This document shows positions 2,416 to 48,168 of a stretch of 64,000 nucleotides of DNA, in pieces. The position numbers and the translations under genes are program-made. Within the stretch, counting starts at the first letter, position 1, and each line of letters begins with the position of its first letter. The DNA is taken from contig AP024096.1 in the NCBI GenBank assembly GCA_015099395.1, forward strand, positions 1,674,001 through 1,738,000, written 5' to 3'. A model generated the notes under the pieces. It worked only from the letters and a program-made list of their open reading frames with translations. It was not told the origin of the DNA and ran no database searches. The DNA comes from Ktedonobacteria bacterium brp13. Its GTDB lineage: Bacteria > Chloroflexota > Ktedonobacteria > Ktedonobacterales > Ktedonobacteraceae.

Positions 2416-3032
2416 AGAAAAGGTTCTGCCTCCCATCCATTGTGGAATAAGGCCGCTTTCAAGGCGCGCCGGGCGTAGCTCAAACGGCTCTTTACGGTGC
2501 CTAAAGGAATGCCAACAATAGCGGCGATCTCTTTGCACGCGAAATCCTGGAAAAAGGCCAGTTCCAGCACCTCGCGGTGTTCGGGGGTCAAACAGGCCAG
2601 GGCTTTGGCAAGTTCCTCATGCGTTGTCCGGCGCAGCAGATCAGCCTCCGGACCCAGCGCTTCATCCGGAAGCTCCAACGCTGCCTCCAGTTCGATAAAA
2701 GTAGTGCCTGCATCCCGGCGCAGAGCCTTGAAAGCCTGGTGGTGGGCTATCCCGAAAATCCAGCGCGCAGCCTGAGCTGTCCTCTGAAAGGTATACGCTT
2801 TCTGCCAAACAATCACCATGACTTCTTGCAGGACATCTTCAGCCAGCTCTTTCTGTCCCAACAAGTGAAAGAGATAGCTGAAAAGTGGGCGCTGAAAATG
2901 CGCATATATCTCAGCCAGAGCCTCACGATCTCTTTTCGCCACCTGCACCAGTAAGAGGTTTTCGGGAGATTCTCGACTCCCTTCTCTCCCGATGCTCTCG
3001 CTTGTATGCCTGGAAAATCCAATACGAATCAA
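2412..3032 (-). CDS. ECF-type RNA polymerase sigma factor
   Basis: About 206 residues. Region 2 is visible around LFSYLFHLLGQKELAEDVLQ, and region 4 is a helix-turn-helix with CKEIAAIVGIPLGTVKSRLS near the C-terminus. Both are typical of sigma-70 family extracytoplasmic-function factors. The chosen start is TTG at 3032 because AAGGAGG lies nine bases upstream in the same frame; no ATG fits better. The gene overlaps the anti-sigma gene by four bases, the standard arrangement for an ECF sigma/anti-sigma pair. It probably directs transcription of its own operon, including the ABC-2 genes downstream. Confidence 0.88.
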   Translation of the reverse strand: MIRIGFSRHTSESIGREGSRESPENLLLVQVAKRDREALAEIYAHFQRPLFSYLFHLLGQKELAEDVLQEVMVIVWQKAYTFQRTAQAARWIFGIAHHQAFKALRRDAGTTFIELEAALELPDEALGPEADLLRRTTHEELAKALACLTPEHREVLELAFFQDFACKEIAAIVGIPLGTVKSRLSYARRALKAALFHNGWEAEPFL

Positions 3033-3469
3033 CTCACCTGACCTCCTTATAAAGTAAGTACCCAAAAAGCGAGAAATGGTTCAAACAGATGAGAAGCAAT
3101 GGGACCAAAAAGCCCGAGAAACACATGCTACTTTCCTGAGAAGAAGAGGAAAAAAAGCTTGCCCTGCGCGTCTCAGAGATATCAACGAGGGGGACTCAGA
3201 AATAGAAGAAGTCGCAAGTAGGGGTAGCGCTACCCCTATAAGATAAAGCATCTGTCTGATCTCTGATGATATGCCCACACAAACAAGCCAATTTAGCCAT
3301 CTTCGTCATCCTTTCTGCCTCAGAAGAGATATAAAAGCAAACGCAGTATTCCGCCAATACTGTTAACTTGTGTATACGTTCAGGGTTGTGAGGTGGTTCA
3401 ATAAATCATCTCAAATTTAAACATTTAAAGCCATAGTTCAGTTTGAACCTTGCTAAGCATTCTGGGGAA

Positions 3470-3500
3470 GTACAAGGATTCCTACAAAAATGGGCCATTT
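3470..3500 (-). repeat. dispersed 31-bp repeat, copy 1
   Basis: Read on the minus strand this matches 7696-7726 at 30 of 31 positions (core GGCCCATTTTTGTA, then GAATCCTTGTAC). A third, more diverged copy lies at 40891-40918. All three sit in intergenic DNA. Function unknown. Confidence 0.7.
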
Positions 3501-3526
3501 AGCAAAAGATCCACCAGCTCACATCG

Positions 3527-3617
3527 TTTATCGCACCTAATGCGTAAAAAGCGTTTATTTTGGCAGGATCTTAAAGAAGTGTTTTTACTCTCTATTGGCT
3601 ATTTATCGCACCTAATG
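3527..3617. repeat. 16-bp direct repeat pair
   Basis: TTTATCGCACCTAATG occurs at 3527-3542 and again at 3602-3617, 75 bases apart. It could be a pair of regulator sites or the trace of a small duplication; nothing in the sequence decides. Confidence 0.6.
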
Positions 3618-3737
3618 GGCTATTAGCTGCGATACACGGCACCAGCAAGGCATCCCACTGAGAAGATGGCGTCATGATACGGAAACCCTTCAAGCCCCTG
3701 GTACGTAGCCGCGTAACGGTAGGTTGAAGAGAACCGG

Positions 3738-4295
3738 TCAGGTCGCCCATGTCTGCCCTGGCAACAGATCTCCCTCATCCTGACGAGGTTCCTGCTCGAG
3801 GACGCGACCAGTCAAGGGGCTGAAGAGCACGATATTGCTGATCAGTTCTCCATGCTCGCCCAGCCGCTCCAGGCATGCTTCCAACTGCTGCATTGAGGGA
3901 ACGACGACCTTGAGCAGCGAGCAATGCTGACCGCTGAGCTTGTGCATCTCCATGACTTCGGGGAAATCTGCGGCGTGCGTAGTTTTCATGAGGCACTTCC
4001 CAGGAGCACATCGTAACTGGATCCAGGCGGTGAGTGACAGGCCGACTTTTGCCAGGTTCAATTGAGCGTGATAGCCCGTCAGAACGCCAGCATCTTCGAG
4101 CTTGCGCACGCGTTCGGCTGTCCCCGGAGCCGAGAGTCCCACCCGTCGCCCCAGTTCTCGGTAGGAGAGACGAGCGTCTTGTTGCAGTTCCCGCAAAATG
4201 TGCCAATCAGTGCTATCGAGCGGAGTTTCCTTTTGGAAGGTCATACCAGCAATTCTTCTTTCATTGTTACTTTCTACGAGCATATTCCTTTCCAT
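3738..4295 (-). CDS. Lrp/AsnC family transcriptional regulator
   Basis: The start at ATG 4295 gives about 185 residues; AGAAGG lies just upstream. An alternative ATG at 4244 begins the conserved part. The N-terminal winged helix-turn-helix (LDSTDWHILRELQQDARLSY then ELGRRVGLSAPGTAERVRKL) is the AsnC DNA-binding domain. The C-terminal half is a degenerate RAM ligand-binding domain (HKLSGQHCSLLKVVV). It is transcribed divergently from the alpha-glucosidase operon with about 85 bases between starts, so it may regulate that operon and itself. Confidence 0.85.
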   Translation of the reverse strand: MERNMLVESNNERRIAGMTFQKETPLDSTDWHILRELQQDARLSYRELGRRVGLSAPGTAERVRKLEDAGVLTGYHAQLNLAKVGLSLTAWIQLRCAPGKCLMKTTHAADFPEVMEMHKLSGQHCSLLKVVVPSMQQLEACLERLGEHGELISNIVLFSPLTGRVLEQEPRQDEGDLLPGQTWAT

Positions 4296-4379
4296 TTTGC
4301 CTTCTTTTTGGAGCATTCCCCTGCTATCATTATGCTCAAACCTGATGAGAGTGTCAATCCTGAAGGAGGTCACACACGT

Positions 4380-6023
4380 ATGCCGCACCAGTTCCCTGTA
4401 CCAGCTCCTCGTTCATCCACCCTGCTCTGGTGGCAACGAGGCGTGCTGTACCACATCTACCCACGGAGTTTCCAGGATAGCAATGGCGATGGCGTTGGGG
4501 ATGTGCAGGGCATCATCACGCGTTTGGACTACCTGAGCTGGCTTGGGGTAGATGTCCTCTGGCTCTCTCCGATCTTTCCCTCACCCATGATTGATGGGGG
4601 CTACGACCTCGCCGATTATTGTACGGTTGATCCGCTCTTCGGCGACCTGGCGACCTTTGTGCAACTGCTTGAGCAGGCCCATCGCCGGGGATTGAAGGTC
4701 CTGCTTGATTTTGTCCCCAACCATACCTCCGATGTGCATCCCTGGTTCATGGAAGCACGTGCCGGTCGCACCAGCTGCAAGCGTGAATGGTACATCTGGC
4801 ACGATCCCGCGCCAGATGGAGGTCCTCCCAACAACTGGGAGAGCTACTTCGGTGGCCCAGCCTGGACATTTGATCAGCACACGGGGCAATATTACTTGCA
4901 TCAGTTCGATGACAGGATGCCTGAGTTGAACTGGCGCAATCCAGAGGTGCGAACCGCCATGTACGGCGTGATGCGCTTCTGGCTCGATCTGGGAGTGGAT
5001 GGCCTGCGCGTCGATGTGCCTTGGCTGCTCATCAAGGACGAGCAGTTTCGTGACAACCCCATCAATCCCGACTGGAAAGCAGGGGACTTGCCCTGGACTC
5101 GCCAGATCCGGCTCTACAGCGAGGATCGACCCGAGGTTCACGAAGTGGTGCGTGAGATGCAGGCTGTGATAGACAGCTATGCCGAACGGGTGCTGATCGG
5201 AGAAACCTATCTGCCGCTCCCTCGCCTGTTGCGCTATTACGGGGAGCGCCTGCAGGGCATGCACTTTCCTTTCAACTTCCACCTCATCCTGCTTTCAGAG
5301 TGGAATGCACAAGCGATCCGGCAGGCGGTGGAGGCTTACGAAGCAGCCTTGCCAGTAGGGGCTTGGCCCAACTGGGTGCTGGGCAACCACGATCAGCCAC
5401 GCCTGGTCAGCCGGCTTGGATGGCAAGCTGCCCGCGTCGCGACGATGTTGTTGCTAACCTTACGCGGGACGCCCACCTGGTACTATGGCGATGAGCTTGG
5501 CATGCAGGACGTGCCGATTCCTGATCATCTCGCCCAGGACCCGCAAGGCAAGCGCCAACCGGGCTTTGGACGCGATCCTGCACGCACACCGATGCAGTGG
5601 GATGACGGACCAAACGCTGGATTCTGCTTGCCCAATGTGGAACCATGGCTGCCGCTGGCCGCCGATTCCCAGAAGATGAACGCAGCCGCAGAGCAGGAAG
5701 ATGCTCGCTCACACCTTTCCCTCACCCGCGCACTGCTCAGCCTGCGCCGCAGGACACCAGCGCTCACCAGCGGCAGCTATCATACGCTTGAAAGTGGTTC
5801 TGAATGCTGTTTTGTCTATCTGCGAGAACAGGGAGAGCAGCACCTGATGGTTGCCCTGAACTGTTCAGTGCAGGAACAAGTAGTGAAGGTGCCTGAGGTG
5901 GGCCAGGGCCGCCTCCTCCTTTCGACCTATCTCGATCGAGAGGGACCGGTGAATCTGGCTGCTCTTGCGCTGCGAAGCCAGGAAGGGTGCATCATTGAAA
6001 TCGAGGAGTTTCACATGTTATGA
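4380..6023 (+). CDS. GH13 alpha-glucosidase / oligo-1,6-glucosidase-like
   Basis: This 547-residue cytoplasmic enzyme hydrolyses alpha-glucosidic bonds in short oligosaccharides. All four GH13 regions are visible: DFVPNHTSD (region I), GLRVDVPW with the nucleophile Asp (II), GETYLP with the acid/base Glu (III) and GNHDQPR with the transition-state Asp (IV). RDPARTPMQWDDG is the usual motif of the alpha-glucosidase branch. The start at 4380 follows GAAGGAGG by ten bases; the frame extends further upstream but overlaps the Lrp gene and has no homologous content there. No signal peptide is seen. The last codons overlap the start of a decayed monooxygenase fragment (ATGA). Confidence 0.93.
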   Translation: MPHQFPVPAPRSSTLLWWQRGVLYHIYPRSFQDSNGDGVGDVQGIITRLDYLSWLGVDVLWLSPIFPSPMIDGGYDLADYCTVDPLFGDLATFVQLLEQAHRRGLKVLLDFVPNHTSDVHPWFMEARAGRTSCKREWYIWHDPAPDGGPPNNWESYFGGPAWTFDQHTGQYYLHQFDDRMPELNWRNPEVRTAMYGVMRFWLDLGVDGLRVDVPWLLIKDEQFRDNPINPDWKAGDLPWTRQIRLYSEDRPEVHEVVREMQAVIDSYAERVLIGETYLPLPRLLRYYGERLQGMHFPFNFHLILLSEWNAQAIRQAVEAYEAALPVGAWPNWVLGNHDQPRLVSRLGWQAARVATMLLLTLRGTPTWYYGDELGMQDVPIPDHLAQDPQGKRQPGFGRDPARTPMQWDDGPNAGFCLPNVEPWLPLAADSQKMNAAAEQEDARSHLSLTRALLSLRRRTPALTSGSYHTLESGSECCFVYLREQGEQHLMVALNCSVQEQVVKVPEVGQGRLLLSTYLDREGPVNLAALALRSQEGCIIEIEEFHML

Positions 6024-10288: not shown

Positions 10289-11154
10289 CTGCTTATGGCA
10301 ATGAATGCAGGTGTGGTGATTACCTTTGACCTGAAAGTTCTCTCCTGAAGGAAGTATAACATATCTGTGGAGAAGAGAGGAAATCTCAAATCTCTCCTGG
10401 TACATTAGGCCTGTCAGTGCGATTCTGACGGAAAAGTACTGTGTACCATATAACTGAGGCTGAGTTTGCTCTTTTTCTTCTTTCCTGCGCCTAAAAGCAG
10501 GCTTTTCTCTCCTCTCCGAAGGCTTTGTCTGAAGTCGCGCATCGAACGTGGCGTGGCGTGTTCCTTGTAACAAGGTGAACGTCTTTAAGTGGAGTACAAG
10601 AGTCTCTAGAGCGGCTTCACACATAAGCTCAGCCTCAGTTATATGGTACGCCGTAGTGCGCCCAATGAGGCCCATGATTGTCTGCGGCAGGGTTTGCCGC
10701 CTCACTCAGGCAAGGTGAGTAAAGCAGCTTCTTACCTTTGACCGAAAGGTACAGGGGGACAGGAGCATGGAGTGAAAAGCCCGTTGAAGTCCTAGCACCA
10801 GGGACCAGAGGGCGGGCAGCTAGGCTATCTATGGTGAAAGCTTGATTGTTTAAAGCCCAGTCACGGTGGATGATACCTATCCTGCGGGAGGGTGTAATTG
10901 CCCGCATCTGACGAGATGAATGAAAGATACAGTCGCATTCATCTAGCCTGCGTCAGAACCAGCCTTCAAGGAGAAGGAAATGACGAACGGGCCACCTATG
11001 GAAGACCGACGATCAGGGGTAACTTGGGGATCGCCTAAACGCTGTAAAGCGCAAGGCGACGGAAGAGTCATAGTACTCAAACGCTCTCCGCAATGGGAGA
11101 GACACGGGGAAGGACTCTAGAGAGTCCGCTTCATTCAAAAGGAGGTTGGCTCGG

Positions 11155-12085
11155 ATGAGCCAAAAGACCATCGCGCGATTGGAGCGCCTACAACAATTGA
11201 ATAGCAATCGACAGTGGATCAATCACGATCTGTACCGACTGATGTATCAGGAAGATCTGTATATCATCGCCTACGAGCGGATCAAGTCCAAACCCGGCAA
11301 TATGACGCCGGGGACAGACGAAGAGACGCTGGATGGCTTCTCCCTCGCGACGATCCGTGAGATCATTCAGGAGATGAGAACCGAACACTTTCGCTTTCGC
11401 CCCGTTCGGCAGCAGTTCATACCGAAGTCGAACGGCAAGATGCGCAAGCTCGGCATTCCCTGCGTGCGGGACAAAGTGGTCCAGGAGGTCATGCATATGA
11501 TCCTCGAAGCCATCTACGACAGCCCTAACGCACCCTACTTTCAGGAAACCAGCCACGGATTTCGGCCACAACGGAGTTGCCACACCGCCCTACGGGAAAT
11601 CCGCACCCACTGGACCGGAGTGAACTGGTATATTGAAGGAGATATCCATGCCTGCTTCGATGAACTCGACCATCAGATCCTAGTCCATATCCTGCGCAAG
11701 AAAATCAAGGATGAGCGCTTTCTCAACCTCATCTGGAAATTGCTGAAAGCAGGATATATGGACTTGCACGGAAGCAAAAAGGAAAGCCTCATCGGTTCCC
11801 CCCAGGGTGGCATCATCAGCCCGATCCTGGCGAATGTGTATCTTCATGAACTCGACGAATATATCGAGAAAATCAAGAAAACACATGAGAAAGGAACCAA
11901 AAAGCGAGACAATCCTGAGTACGTCCGGCTCATCCGAGAGAAGAACCGGCTGGTAGCGCAGGGAGCCACCAAGACCAAGGCGTTTCGAGCCATCATGAAA
12001 CAGATCCGAGCAACCCCTTCCAAGGTGGTCAACGATCCCACATTTTGCAGGATAAAATACCTGAGATATGCGGACGATTGGCTCA
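11155..12085 (+). CDS. ltrA: outer intron reverse transcriptase-maturase, 5' part
   Basis: The start at ATG 11155 follows AAAGGAGG by nine bases. The part encodes RT domains 0 to 5: RFRPVRQQFIPKSNGKMRKL, SHGFRPQRSCHTAL, IEGDIHACFDELDH, SPQGGIISPILANVYL, ending at the catalytic box YLRYADDWL. The inner intron begins in the codon just after this box. Without splicing, the frame reads a few bases into the intron and stops at 12096. With splicing it continues as DWLIGLCGSRATAEEIKE from 14538. The full spliced product is 615 residues. Confidence 0.92.
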
Positions 12086-14537
12086 GTGCGACCTGAAGTC
12101 GCTTGTGTTGAGTGGAGCAAAGGCGCTCCCAGCCTAGTATCCAAGGCTGTCTCCAATCCCTCTCTGCGTCACTGGCAACGGTGAGGTGGAAAGCGAGGGG
12201 TAACGTCCAAGGAAGCTTCGAGCCGAATGAGGCAACCGGGCAAGGGGAAAACTGGAAGGATGAATGCAAATGAACCTTCGATGAGGCTGCGTGACGTCGC
12301 GGTCATCGAAACGGCTAAAACGATGATGAATGGGACAACGGTCCCTGTGGGCTAAGCCATCCCAGGAATGGATACCCAGTCCCCGCAGTAAAGAAGGCAC
12401 TCCTCACCAGTTGTATCTCACACATGCGAAACAGGATAACCCCAATGAAGTCTCAGAGATGGTCGATGCTCTGAGTAAGCCAACCGCAAGGAAAGCCGAA
12501 CTCTTCAGTGGGAAAGGGAGGGATCAAAAAGCGAATGCTGCCAGCCGAAAGGCAACAGGAATTCATAACTGGGCAGATAGGGCCGGAAACGGAGATACCC
12601 ACGCCGAAAGGCGGCTGACGTGATCCTGGTGCATTACCCAAAGAACGATGTAAAGGCTATTTATCAAGGGAAAAGTTCGATGCAAGCCACACGCTTTGCA
12701 AACGGAACCGAGAAGCAGACCGACTGGAACGCGATCAACTGGCGTAAAGCCAATCGGACTGTTCGTAACCTGAGACACCGCATCTTTCGGGCAGCACAAG
12801 AGGGCAACCGGAAACGGGTGCGCTCGCTTCAAAAACTCATGCTGAAAAGCTACTCCAACCGGCTGGTGAGTGTCCGGCGAGTAGCACAGATCAACGCTGG
12901 GAAAAACACGCCCGGGGTGGATAAACTGGTTATCAAAACACCAGCCGCCAGAGGAAGAATGGTCGATACCCTCGCCCACTACACCCTCTGGAAAGCCAAA
13001 CCAGCAAAAAGGGTTTACATCCCCAAAGCCAACAACAAGTTAAGGCCGCTCGGAATCCCCGTCATTCAGGATCGCTGCCTTCAGGCAATGGTCAAGAACG
13101 CCCTGGAACCTTTCTGGGAAGCCAAGTTCGAGGGCACAAGCTACGGATTTCGACCAGGGCGCAGTGGACATGATGCGATCGAGAAAATCTTCGGATTGGC
13201 TCGACCAAACAAGACCAAGAAATGGGTCTTGGACGCAGATATACGCGGCGCCTTCGACCACATCTCACATGAACACTTGCTCCGGGCCATTGGTCCGGTT
13301 CCAGGGATGGAACTCATCAAGCAATGGCTCAAAGCAGGTTATGTCGAAAAAGAGGTCTTCTACGCAACAGAGCAAGGAACGCCCCAGGGCGGCGTCGTGT
13401 CGCCCTTATTGGCCAATATTGCCCTACACGGCATGGAAGAGGCCATTGGGGTCAAATATGACTCCCGAGGCCAACTTACTGGCAAACGGGCAGTCGTGAG
13501 GTATGCAGACGACTTCGTATGCTTTTGTGAAACCAGGGAAGATGCCGAGCGAGTGCAAGGCATCCTGACGGAATGGTTGAGAGAGCGCGGTCTGACCCTC
13601 TCGGAGGAAAAGACGCGGATTGTCCACCTGACTGAAGGGTTTGACTTTCTTGGTTTCAATATTCGGCATTACCCCGCGCCGAAAACCTCACGCACAGGAT
13701 GGAAACTCCTCATTAAACCCAGCAAAGAGTCAGTACAGGAAGTGCGAACGAAGCTCAAAGTTTTGTGGAAAAAAGCCCACGGAACAAACGTCCAAACCGT
13801 CCTGGGGCAATTCAACCCGGTTATTCGGGGATGGGCGAACTACTTTCGCACGGCGGTAGCCAAAGAAATCTTTAGCGGCTTGGACTGCTGGATGTTCTAC
13901 AAAGAAGATCGGTACACCAGGCGCGCACACCCCAAAAAGGCCAAAGACTGGCGGCATCAACACTATTGGGGCCGATTGCATCTCGAACGGAACGATCCCT
14001 GGGTGTTTGGTGACAAACAAACCGGGGCGTATCTGCTCAAATTCAGTTGGTTCCCCATTGAACGACATACGCTGGTCAAAGGGACATCCTCACCCGATGA
14101 TCCCCGCCTGAGGAGTTACTGGATGGAACGGCAGGCGGCGAAAGCCAAGGACCTGACCTTCTCCAAACAAAAGCTCGTCAAAAGGCAACATGGTCGATGT
14201 CCACAATGCGGAGAGTCCCTCTTCAAGGATGAAGAACTCCAGATCCATCACCTCCATGCCCGCGCCGATGGGGGAAAGAATGTCTACAGTAATCTTGTTC
14301 TGGTTCATTTGCTCTGCCATCAGCATATTCACGCCGCGTCGAAACGAGCACTGAGCGATTGCCAGGAGTTCAACAACCGTGACCCGCTGGCGACAAAACG
14401 CAAAGCCGCTCGATACACAAAGCGCAGAGAGGAAGAGAAGCAGTGCTGTACGTGATGTGCTTGAGCCGTGTGCGTTGAGAGGCGCACGCACGGTTCTCAG
14501 GGGGCCGGGGGACAGCAATGTCCTCTGGCTACCCGAC
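12086..14537 (+). mobile_element. inner group II intron nested in RT gene of outer intron
   Basis: The 5' end is GTGCGACC at 12086. The 3' end is CTACCCGAC ending at 14537, after a domain V hairpin (GAGCCGTGTGCG...CGCACGGTTC, 14463-14497) and a domain VI stem. Removing exactly 12086-14537 (2452 bp) fuses the two halves of the outer RT gene in frame, which proves the boundaries. Its ORF is of the chloroplast-like class, different from its host's, so this is not self-insertion. The 12086-12679 stretch is non-coding domain I-IV RNA. Confidence 0.93.
12680..14455 (+). CDS. ltrA: inner intron reverse transcriptase-maturase-HNH endonuclease
   Basis: This 591-residue protein has an RT with SYGFRPGRSGHDAIEKI, QGTPQGGVVSPLLANIALHG and the catalytic YADDF, then the maturase X domain, and a C-terminal HNH nuclease with CPQCGESLF, IHHLHARADGG and CHQHIH as zinc and catalytic residues. 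It looks intact. ATG 12680 is chosen as it begins the conserved N-terminus; an in-frame GTG at 12620 is also possible. It would help splice its own intron and copy it into new DNA sites. Its splicing is needed for the outer maturase to be made. Confidence 0.93.
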   Translation: MQATRFANGTEKQTDWNAINWRKANRTVRNLRHRIFRAAQEGNRKRVRSLQKLMLKSYSNRLVSVRRVAQINAGKNTPGVDKLVIKTPAARGRMVDTLAHYTLWKAKPAKRVYIPKANNKLRPLGIPVIQDRCLQAMVKNALEPFWEAKFEGTSYGFRPGRSGHDAIEKIFGLARPNKTKKWVLDADIRGAFDHISHEHLLRAIGPVPGMELIKQWLKAGYVEKEVFYATEQGTPQGGVVSPLLANIALHGMEEAIGVKYDSRGQLTGKRAVVRYADDFVCFCETREDAERVQGILTEWLRERGLTLSEEKTRIVHLTEGFDFLGFNIRHYPAPKTSRTGWKLLIKPSKESVQEVRTKLKVLWKKAHGTNVQTVLGQFNPVIRGWANYFRTAVAKEIFSGLDCWMFYKEDRYTRRAHPKKAKDWRHQHYWGRLHLERNDPWVFGDKQTGAYLLKFSWFPIERHTLVKGTSSPDDPRLRSYWMERQAAKAKDLTFSKQKLVKRQHGRCPQCGESLFKDEELQIHHLHARADGGKNVYSNLVLVHLLCHQHIHAASKRALSDCQEFNNRDPLATKRKAARYTKRREEEKQCCT

Positions 14538-15454
14538 TCGGCCTGTGCGGGAGTCGCGCCACAGCAGAGGAGATCAAGGAACTGGTGAAAACCTTTCTCC
14601 ACGACCACCTCAAGCTCACTCTTAGCGAAGAGAAAACACGCATTACCCACGCACAAACCGAAGAGGCGTTCTTCCTGGGAACCATCTTGACCATTGGCAA
14701 TGGAGGAGAAGCGAAAGTCGTCCGGCAAAAGACCAGCAAGGGCAAAATGATTCAACGACGAAGCACCGGATGGGCAACCATCATGAAGGCCCCTCTGGAC
14801 AAAGTGCTGAAACGACTCAAGGAACGCGGCTTCTGTACCGGGGAGGGAGAACCGACAGCGAAAGGACTATGGACAGTATTGAATGCAGACCAGATCATCC
14901 AGCTCTACAGCAGCGTCAATCGTGGTCTTCAGAACTACTACCGCTTCGTAGATAACTGGAAACAATGCTCCCGCATTCAATATATCCTGAAATTCTCGCT
15001 GGCAAAGACGCTAGCGCAGAAATACAAGATCTCCGTCCCCCAGGTGTTTCAACGCTTTGGCAAAGACCTCTCACTTCTCATCAAAGGGCAAGGGGGGAAA
15101 GCAGATCGTCAGGTCAGCTTTTACCTCAACCAAGATTGGACGAAAAGCCGACTGGCCTTTCAAGGAGGAAATCAGCACGACCTGGACGTTGTACGAACCC
15201 TGGTCCGTCTCCGAACTCGCTCCAAGCTGGGAAAACCCTGTTGTATCTGCGGCGAAGCACAAAAACAGATTGAGATGCACCATATCCGACATATTCGGAA
15301 GCTGAGCAACAAACGAGTGGCAACAGGCTTCAATCGGCTCCTACGAGCCATGAACCGCAAGCAAGTACCCGTCTGCTCAGACTGTCATTGGAAGATCCAC
15401 CGAGGAGAGTATGATGGCCTCAAGCTCTCCAATCTGGCGTATCTCCCACGCTAA
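14538..15454 (+). CDS. ltrA: outer intron reverse transcriptase-maturase, 3' part
   Basis: This is the continuation of the outer ORF after the inner intron. It holds RT domains 6-7 (TFLHDHLKLTLSEEKTRITH), the maturase domain X (NRGLQNYYRFVDNW), and an HNH domain with CCICGEAQKQIEMHHIRHIR and VPVCSDCHWKIHRG. The frame is uninterrupted to TAA at 15454. It has no start of its own and depends on splicing of the inner intron. Confidence 0.92.
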
Positions 15455-15738
15455 ACAAAGACGGTAGTGGCTCTTGGAGAGCCGGATGCACGGAAACGTG
15501 CAAGTCTCGGTTCGGCGGGGAGGGGTTGGTGTTCCTGAGCAATCAGGACCCGGCCTCTTACCCGACTCTTTTGGTCAGTTTCACACTGACGGGCCAATTC
15601 TCTGAAATTGGCTGAGGTTTGGATTACTCACAGATCAGGTGTTTTTTCGTCAAACGGTCTACTGCCAAGATATCCTTCACAGAGCGCATCTGCGTCAGAG
15701 GCTCATAGTGTTGCCGTTTTCGCCCAGCGTTCCAGATA

Positions 15739-47418: not shown

Positions 47419-48168
47419 GTACGAATAGGTAGGAACTCACGTTCTTTCCCTTCGTCCAAACCGGACAGGCCAATTTCTCGGCATCCGGCTTTCCAGTACT
47501 CGACTTTGCCTTTCGGCCCGTCCGGTTGAGGTGGGAGATTCGGGTTTCCCGTTGAGGTGCACCAGTTCAAGCACAGCACAACCCGTTGCATGGCAACCCC
47601 CAGTAAACTGGAGAACACGATGCCACTACTTGAACCGTCATCTGCTTTCCTCAATTCATCTCTTTTTCCCCTCGTGACGTGTCTTTCCCTGGCGGACCTT
47701 CACCATGTCCCTGCCATTACAGCAGAGCGTTAGGCTAATACGCCGCCTCCGCCCTCTCGACCGCACGCTAGCATTCTCGCGTCTCTTTCGAGTGAAGCGG
47801 TTTGAGAGTTCCCCCATTTCAAGTAAGGAAGTTCTAGTGACCCTTAGCTCGCCTTCTATACGCCGGGCGGTCTTCGGAGCAATTCCAGCCATAATTTACA
47901 GATAGCCGGACAGCCGCCTTCCCATTTTGGGTCAGGTGTATCAGCCGTTTCACCTGTTTTATCTAACGACGCTTCAAACGAAGGTTTCTCGCGTCGGCAT
48001 AGGCCACAGGGTTCGGTCTTGGGTCCTTTCGGCTAGGATCGCAAGCTCCTTTGTCAGCGGGCTTCACACCCAAAGCCTTGCTGAGGCTTTACGCATGCCG
48101 CTCAACCCTTATGCCATTACTCAAGCATATCTCTTTTGAGAAACTCCTTTACCCGTGAAGGGGCGCAC
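47419..48168 (-). mobile_element. ORF-less group II intron
   Basis: On the minus strand it starts GTGCGCCCCTTCACGGG at 48168 and ends CTACCTATTCGTAC at 47419 (750 bp). A domain V hairpin is readable near 47455-47500 as AGCCGGATGCCGAGAAAT then CCTGTCCGGTTTGG, with the AGC triad and a two-base bulge. Domain VI follows. A GGCTGATAC segment fits domain I. There is no reverse-transcriptase gene, so it depends on a maturase in trans or is dead. The 5' exon is the transposon-end box ATTATCAAATTTAC. Confidence 0.75.

Follow-up and report, generated by a model that had tools for sequence, protein, structure and literature searches.

The window, by which we mean the whole stretch of 64,000 nucleotides analysed, carries two group II introns placed one inside the other, the pair being lodged in one arm of an inverted repeat. 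All the features of this nest lie on the plus strand. The left arm of the repeat, about 60 bp long and belonging to the element into which the outer intron was inserted, is found at 10408..10467, as judged from its alignment with the joined right arm and from other genomic copies. The right arm is split into two halves, 10625..10655 and 15567..15595, which are the 5′ and 3′ exons of the outer intron and which were placed by inverted-repeat alignment and by genomic copies of the repeat. Between these halves, the 5′ part of the outer intron, of the ML-like type and starting with GTGCGCC, spans 10656..12085, and its 3′ part spans 14538..15566. Both parts are delimited by repair of the inverted repeat and by the repeat copies, the 3′ part being also matched by the Rfam family RF00029. 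The IEP of the outer intron is itself cut in two. Its N-terminal half, a reverse transcriptase (RT) reaching up to YADDWL plus one base (11155..12085), was recognised from its ORF, its domains, removal of the inner intron and an uninterrupted relative, P0002. Its C-terminal half, with Intron_maturas2 and an AI2M-like HNH (14538..15454), was recognised by ORF and domain search. Domains V-VI of the outer intron follow at 15477..15566.

The inner intron, CL-like and 2452 nt long (12086..14537), starts with GTGCGAC and terminates with CTACCCGAC. Two other copies in the genome are 100% identical to it over exactly 12086-14537, and two more are 90.66% identical over the same 2452 nt. Since these copies share exactly the same ends, the limits of the intron are independent of any reading of motifs. 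The ends themselves, GTGCG and CCGAC, agree with a GUGYG 5′ end and an AY 3′ end, and a domain V/VI is found at the terminus (14461..14537). The Rfam Intron_gpII match to domains V-VI (60.6 bits) stops exactly at 14537, and the corresponding fold is far stronger than that of shuffled sequences (z -5.66, with none of 200 shuffles equalling it). Upstream, the Rfam family group-II-D1D4-7, describing domain I-IV sequence, matches at 12129-12240. The ORF of the inner IEP (12620..14455; 611 aa from a GTG, with an ATG at 12680) contains RVT_N, RVT_1, GIIM and HNH as seen by ORF and domain searches, that is, reverse transcriptase, maturase and endonuclease domains, and scores 350.4 bits with TIGR04416 for a cut-off of 300. 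Removal of the inner intron joins ...KYLRYADDWL|IGLCGSRATAEEIKELVKTF in frame, and the same position is read through uninterrupted (YLRYADDWLIGLCGSRATAEEVKELVKTF) in P0002, a Dictyobacter arantiisoli protein that shares 88% identity with the N-terminal half of the outer IEP.

The outer intron is delimited in a comparable way. Its 3′ end at 15566 is the exact end of an Intron_gpII match (55.4 bits), and its V/VI fold again stands far from shuffled sequences (z -5.49; 0 of 200 equal). When 10656-15566 is removed and the flanks are joined, an inverted repeat is regained whose arms align, imperfectly, over 61 columns, with a score of 33 that none of 2000 random 3′ flanks attained (best 29). Three other genomic copies of the inverted repeat (L156, L157 and L159), 73-80% identical, are not interrupted at the outer-intron junction. 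Consistent ends, a domain V/VI and, after removal of the inner intron, a full IEP are thus all present, with RVT_1 located 5′ of the inner insertion and Intron_maturas2 and the AI2M-like HNH located 3′ of it. One intron therefore lies wholly within another, and each can be removed with exact repair of its host, which is the anatomy of a twintron. Among solved structures, T.el4h is the best match of the inner IEP (409 bits versus 136 for LtrA), and LtrA that of P0002, the relative of the outer IEP (283.8 bits versus 100), so that the nest is heterologous. In this assignment, which follows the closest match rather than a tree, we take T.el4h to represent the CL class and LtrA the ML class.

Much of this anatomy had been proposed in the initial annotation. 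The coordinates given there for both introns, 12086-14537 and 10656-15566, turn out to be exact, Rfam ends, identical copies and inverted-repeat repair all agreeing on them. The covariance-model search for domain V that had been suggested as a check was carried out, and domains V-VI end on the last base of each intron as it was proposed. Repair of the outer RT in frame at the YADD box was also borne out, with the DWL junction regained and P0002 as an intact counterpart, as was the idea of a heterologous twintron with intron proteins of two classes, T.el4h-like inside and LtrA-like outside. For the inverted repeat, described as 57 bp long, rejoining of the right arm by the excision holds, whereas the extent has to be corrected to 61 imperfectly aligned columns. 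The repeat belongs to a dispersed family with terminal inverted arms of about 60 bp (10408-10655 and 15567-15595 in the window; L156-L159 elsewhere), one set of which (L156, 1438-4795) is about 3 kb long and has, by eye, a recombinase-like ORF.

The position of the inner intron bears on the expression of its host. In the unspliced RNA, the reading frame stops directly inside the inner intron, three residues after YADDWL (WL-S-A-T-stop). The unspliced outer RNA therefore codes for a truncated RT without the maturase domain. Since the frame stops in the inner intron and the maturase domain is located 3′ of it, unspliced RNA cannot yield the outer maturase, and to this extent the dependence of the outer maturase on inner splicing, as originally claimed, is retained. 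From the reading frames, it is likely that the inner element gates the protein-dependent splicing and mobility of the host intron. An ordered splicing, which had also been claimed, does not follow. The ORF of group II introns forms a loop that protrudes from domain IV. As the inner intron lies in this loop, its presence need not prevent folding of the outer ribozyme, which could alternatively be helped by a maturase made elsewhere. As the insertion is in the ORF, any order in the predicted splicing would be enforced via the protein.

The nest of the window is accompanied by others. The genome, assembled as a single contig of 8.88 Mb, was searched for domains V/VI by scoring 150 of 615 first-look candidates. 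At least 46 matches were obtained, weak ones included, several of them following one another at intervals of about 1 kb. The sequences fetched at these places revealed four additional copies of the inner intron, making five in all, and the picture of a single isolated nest, which had been the original one, is ruled out by these four further stacks. All five inner copies interrupt a host RT at YADDWL|I. This RT belongs to the outer intron of the window in one case and, in the four others, to a second ML-like intron (L032 4170-9034), hereafter called mid, a relative of which is closest to LtrA (400.8 versus 100.6 bits). The mid intron is in turn inserted exactly after the YADD of a third RT in 4/4 copies in this genome, with three distinct hosts, one of which is of the CL class. 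The latter is seen at locus L031 (LLIRYADD|FVIFHSNR), one ML-like host is shared by loci L032 and L033 (RYCRYADD|FALAFTGP), and another ML-like host is found at L034 (RFVRYADD|FCLGLAGS). L033 and L034 carry in addition a fourth intron directly behind the domain V hairpin of mid. These two stacks, the largest ones, comprise four introns on three levels.

The lineage of this fourth intron, CL-like and hereafter called four (L033 9366-11767), is also observed at L034, L132, L133 and L143. Its insertions into other group II introns all fall within some 10 nt after the domain V hairpin, and four distinct domain V contexts are represented. From its location directly behind domain V, it would be expected to block the host ribozyme directly.

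Repeated elements invite misassembly, and it may be asked whether such stacks are assembly chimaeras. The sequence comes from one contig, five loci with several different hosts are concerned, and the same arrangement recurs in other genomes and, as far as protein tails tell, in database ORFs (see below); this explanation is so improbable that it can practically be set aside.

Empty sites are known at several levels of the stacks. In the same genome, an uninterrupted CL host (L047) is 99.5% identical in DNA over 1610 nt across the mid junction. For the mid intron itself, an uninterrupted RT is found in G034, a genome from another genus of the same family (608 residues, versus 608 for the joined protein, 78.8% identical), and a database protein with a YVDD box (P0121) corresponds to an uninterrupted mid RT, 98% identical to the N-terminal half. 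The comparison of loci L032 and L033 bears on how the sites were filled. The 5′ part of mid, 1428 nt, is identical in the two loci, and 4 differences are counted in the first 930 nt of its 3′ part. Between the inner introns, which entered mid at one and the same nucleotide, there are 229 differences in 2452 nt (9.3%). Like the empty sites, this pair of inner alleles, carried at a single position by hosts that are nearly identical, argues for repeated site-specific homing; without such homing, or a replacement at that site, it would be hard to explain.

A different explanation would be that one nest was formed once and was then copied elsewhere as DNA, by segmental duplication or recombination rather than by homing. 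The mid and inner parts are indeed identical in L033 and L034, and a single alignment covers mid, inner and fourth introns with 99.7% identity over 7345 nt. Identical composites of this kind may have spread as units, so that copy numbers overstate the number of events. However, the limits of the segment common to L031 and L032 are at most 4 nt away from those of the intron, mid resides in three different host RTs, and near-identical mid introns contain different inner alleles. Moreover, the inner intron is also present in the host of the window, and another genus has mid without the inner intron. A purely segmental origin of the nests is therefore very unlikely.

It may also be envisaged that the introns were inserted once and now neither splice nor move, the stacks being debris in a repeat-rich genome. 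The large number of domain V/VI matches, at least 46 with weak ones included, fits with such a view, as does the fact that some relatives have stops or are themselves interrupted. Against it, frames are open on both sides of the junctions, domains V/VI are intact, three inner copies are 100% identical over 2452 nt, and dN/dS is low. The ratio is 0.12 between the inner alleles and 0.10 for mid between two genera, the dS of 1.47 being near saturation in the latter comparison. From these values the intron proteins look to be under purifying selection, much of which may predate the insertions. We consider a dead stack to be an unlikely explanation.

Other genomes extend these observations. In G034, 4/4 relatives of mid are located exactly after YADD, in three distinct hosts. 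Across 47 genomes of the class, all 8 copies of the mid lineage found at 75% identity or more are at this position. Among 26 other mid-lineage loci that were fetched (at most 60% identity), 18 have a likely intron start and 8 have none; the YADD site was found in none of those 18 distant loci, some of which are, by eye, at transposase motifs. Four distant relatives (L162, L164, L167 and L188) lie in apparent transposase genes, by eye at conserved motifs that we take to be those of TnpB (MDRDQNAA and HDRDINAAK), of an IS110-like element (LASWAGV) and of an IS3-like element (GRALDNIF). For the inner lineage, an intron is found in YADDFV|IGVTG (L143) in another genome of the family, inferred to be K. 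racemifer (G032). Of the close inner-lineage copies, a count of 11 that leaves out relatives at 46% or less and loci from Rickettsia, Ensifer and Rhizobium, 6 are in RTs. The remaining 5 show no YADD flank, so that this lineage cannot be regarded as strictly dependent on YADD sites. Members of this lineage are themselves found interrupted. At L056 of K. racemifer, around 3000-5000, the inner-lineage IEP is broken at TPQGGVITP by a segment with, by eye, a serine-recombinase-like ORF on the opposite strand, and a relative from Ensifer (L061) is also broken at PQGGIITP.

A search for the pattern YADD|GTGCG in 400 Chloroflexota genomes gave matches in 105 of them, for a backward control that also matches in many. 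In the genome under study, this search returns exactly the nine known sites. Elsewhere, the 20 gapless matches listed were fetched. Judging the frames by eye, 4 of these are interrupted RTs, all from G034, and the 16 others are chance matches in unrelated genes. Four gapped YADD matches were also fetched, of which one is real (that of G032), one is an intact RT and two are in unrelated frames. In protein databases, homologs of three N-terminal halves were collected as the best 120 of 3750, of 7198 and of 7844, giving 360 proteins. Among these listed matches, 260 reach YADD and 44 of the 260 break there with tails resembling an intron start, the ORF of the window and 43 others. Among these 44 ORFs, the break occurs directly after YADD in 22, one base later in 9, and six or seven bases later in 13. 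This count relies on protein tails only, with signatures written after the tails had been seen and with a length window that favours fragments, and it is not a prevalence. For annotation, these 44 of 260 listed fragments call for caution, since ORFs that appear cut at YADD can pass as partial reverse transcriptases.

How the site may be recognised was considered from an alignment of eight introns of the inner lineage, in which guide loops were picked by eye. A hypervariable segment is present, the letters of which match, by eye, the own 5′ exon of each intron. The loop and target pairs are TAAGCCA with TGGCTCA or TGGCTGA, GCGAAA with TTCGTG, TGTCA with TGACA, TTTGAG with CTCAAA, and GATATTC with GAATATC. 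After three near-duplicates of the eight (L033, G034_L065 and G026_L078) were left out, the assignment of the five EBS1 loops to their own targets was the best of 120 possible assignments and, with mid added, the best of 720. In the window, the predicted EBS1 of the inner intron, TAAGCCA (12353..12359), picked by eye and scored, pairs at 6 of 7 positions with TGGCTCA or TGGCTGA, with a mismatch at -2 in both hosts. At a length of 7 nt, the L056 loop scores higher with the target of the window (6.5) than with its own (5.0). The predicted EBS2, at 12295..12299, is a CGTCG segment noted by eye in the alignment; its letters would allow pairing with both Asp codons, a G facing the wobble base in both hosts. 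For mid, the EBS1 loop reads ATCGTC in the present genome and GTCGTC in G034. The latter is one of only four hexamers pairing fully with every spelling of Asp-Asp, and ATCGTC pairs at 5 or 6 of 6 positions with these spellings.

A plain search for guides is less telling. In the first 470 nt of the mid intron, a guide as good as EBS1 is found in 84 of 500 and 129 of 500 shuffles, which is not significant, and the raw search was accordingly discarded as a proof. The same is true of hairpin energies. The EBS1 hairpins of the inner and mid introns fold no better than shuffles (z -0.21 and -0.12); the lowest-energy fold of mid agrees with the reading by eye, and that of the inner intron departs from the drawn hairpin, part of EBS1 being paired. 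Because the plain guide search is not significant, the case for the guides rests on the homologous position of the loops and on their covariation with the targets, and the EBS pairing with codons close to YADD is put forward as a prediction.

Taken together, these data lead us to propose, with a probability of about 0.8, that a CL-like intron came to lie in the RT ORF of an ML-like intron, just after the YADD codons, by retrohoming, the Asp-Asp and Trp-Leu codons being the predicted pairing partners of its RNA. In such a scheme, the inner RNP would recognise the YADD-proximal codons thanks to pairing of EBS2 with Asp-Asp and of EBS1 with the following two residues. The inner intron would then reverse-splice at this site and be copied by its own IEP, which carries RT, maturase and HNH. 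The YADD codons are among the most conserved of group II intron RTs, so that one guide would fit many hosts and the site would be a reusable home. The mid lineage occupies an adjacent position, exactly after YADD, and has a predicted EBS1 loop largely indifferent to the spelling of Asp-Asp. Stacking of YADD inserters with the lineage four, settled behind domain V, gives rise to nests of two to four introns.

A broader view, to which we would give about even odds, is that a guild of group II introns living off other group II introns exists in Ktedonobacteria. At least two unrelated lineages would split RTs at or just behind YADD, at different offsets, and a third would settle behind domain V. 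Their guides would read Asp-Asp by wobble, hence a protein motif rather than one DNA spelling. With stacks of up to four introns, in which the RT/maturase or the ribozyme of the host would be held hostage, a chain of RNA hyperparasites would be formed.

Nests of group II introns have precedents. Dai and Zimmerly reportedly described nested group II introns of Methanosarcina acetivorans in 2003. In this archaeon, nests comprise up to five group II introns and result from repeated site-specific homing into other introns, according to a summary of that work (PMC4424553). The nests described here could therefore simply be of this type, that is, a case of the known homing into group II intron ORFs; here, too, the IEP ORFs of hosts are entered repeatedly at a single site. 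However, judging from a summary description of the archaeal case, the present one is distinguished by a donor and a host of different classes, CL-like into ML-like and ML-like also into CL-like, and by a position at the YADD box; adjacent positions, as well as domain V, are occupied by additional lineages. That nothing beyond the Methanosarcina type is involved appears rather unlikely.

Another likeness to the retrohoming proposed here is found in the TeI3/TeI4 twintrons of Thermosynechococcus elongatus. There, a mobile intron repeatedly enters a conserved site of another intron, and inner copies are identical in diverged hosts (PMC2882425). The inner introns are described there as ORF-less and as located between the first two ATGs of the host IEP (PMC2882425). 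Because of this location, translation of the host IEP from the second ATG would still be possible. In the present nest, in contrast, the insertion cuts through the catalytic region, and a complete IEP is encoded by the inner intron itself. In Trichodesmium, Tr.e.I7/Tr.e.I8 form another bacterial nest of group II introns that, like those of the window, are distantly related and each contain an ORF, and their sequential splicing was shown in vivo (PMC4649490). In that case, the inner intron breaks domain I of its host, within a protein-coding gene, and no homolog from another bacterium is reported by the authors (PMC4649490). The mat1f twintrons of the Porphyridium plastid come close in another respect, since the same inner intron is found in two different outer introns at one domain IV site; the case is organellar, the outer IEPs are truncated, and the site is not placed at YADD in the passages available (PMC4476101).

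Twintrons, including some from further bacteria, and homing into intron ORFs are thus already known, and the new part would be the catalytic-codon target. In the literature searched, outside which most subscription papers lie, no report of group II introns in YADD codons was found. If the proposal is true, the most conserved codons of a family of retroelements would serve as a broad homing site for fellow members of the family, and the homing site would be chosen by a guide RNA tolerating synonymous changes. This would explain the multi-level nests and would offer a simple model of retroelement hyperparasitism, as well as a natural system for asking whether an inner intron gates the expression of the host maturase.

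Apart from this nest, the window contains on its minus strand, at 47419-48168, a group II intron about 750 nt long that appears to lack an ORF, no minus-strand ORF of 80 aa or more filling it. Its start, GTGCGCCCC, was located by eye at about 48168, and RF00029 matches with 60.3 bits at 47493-47419.
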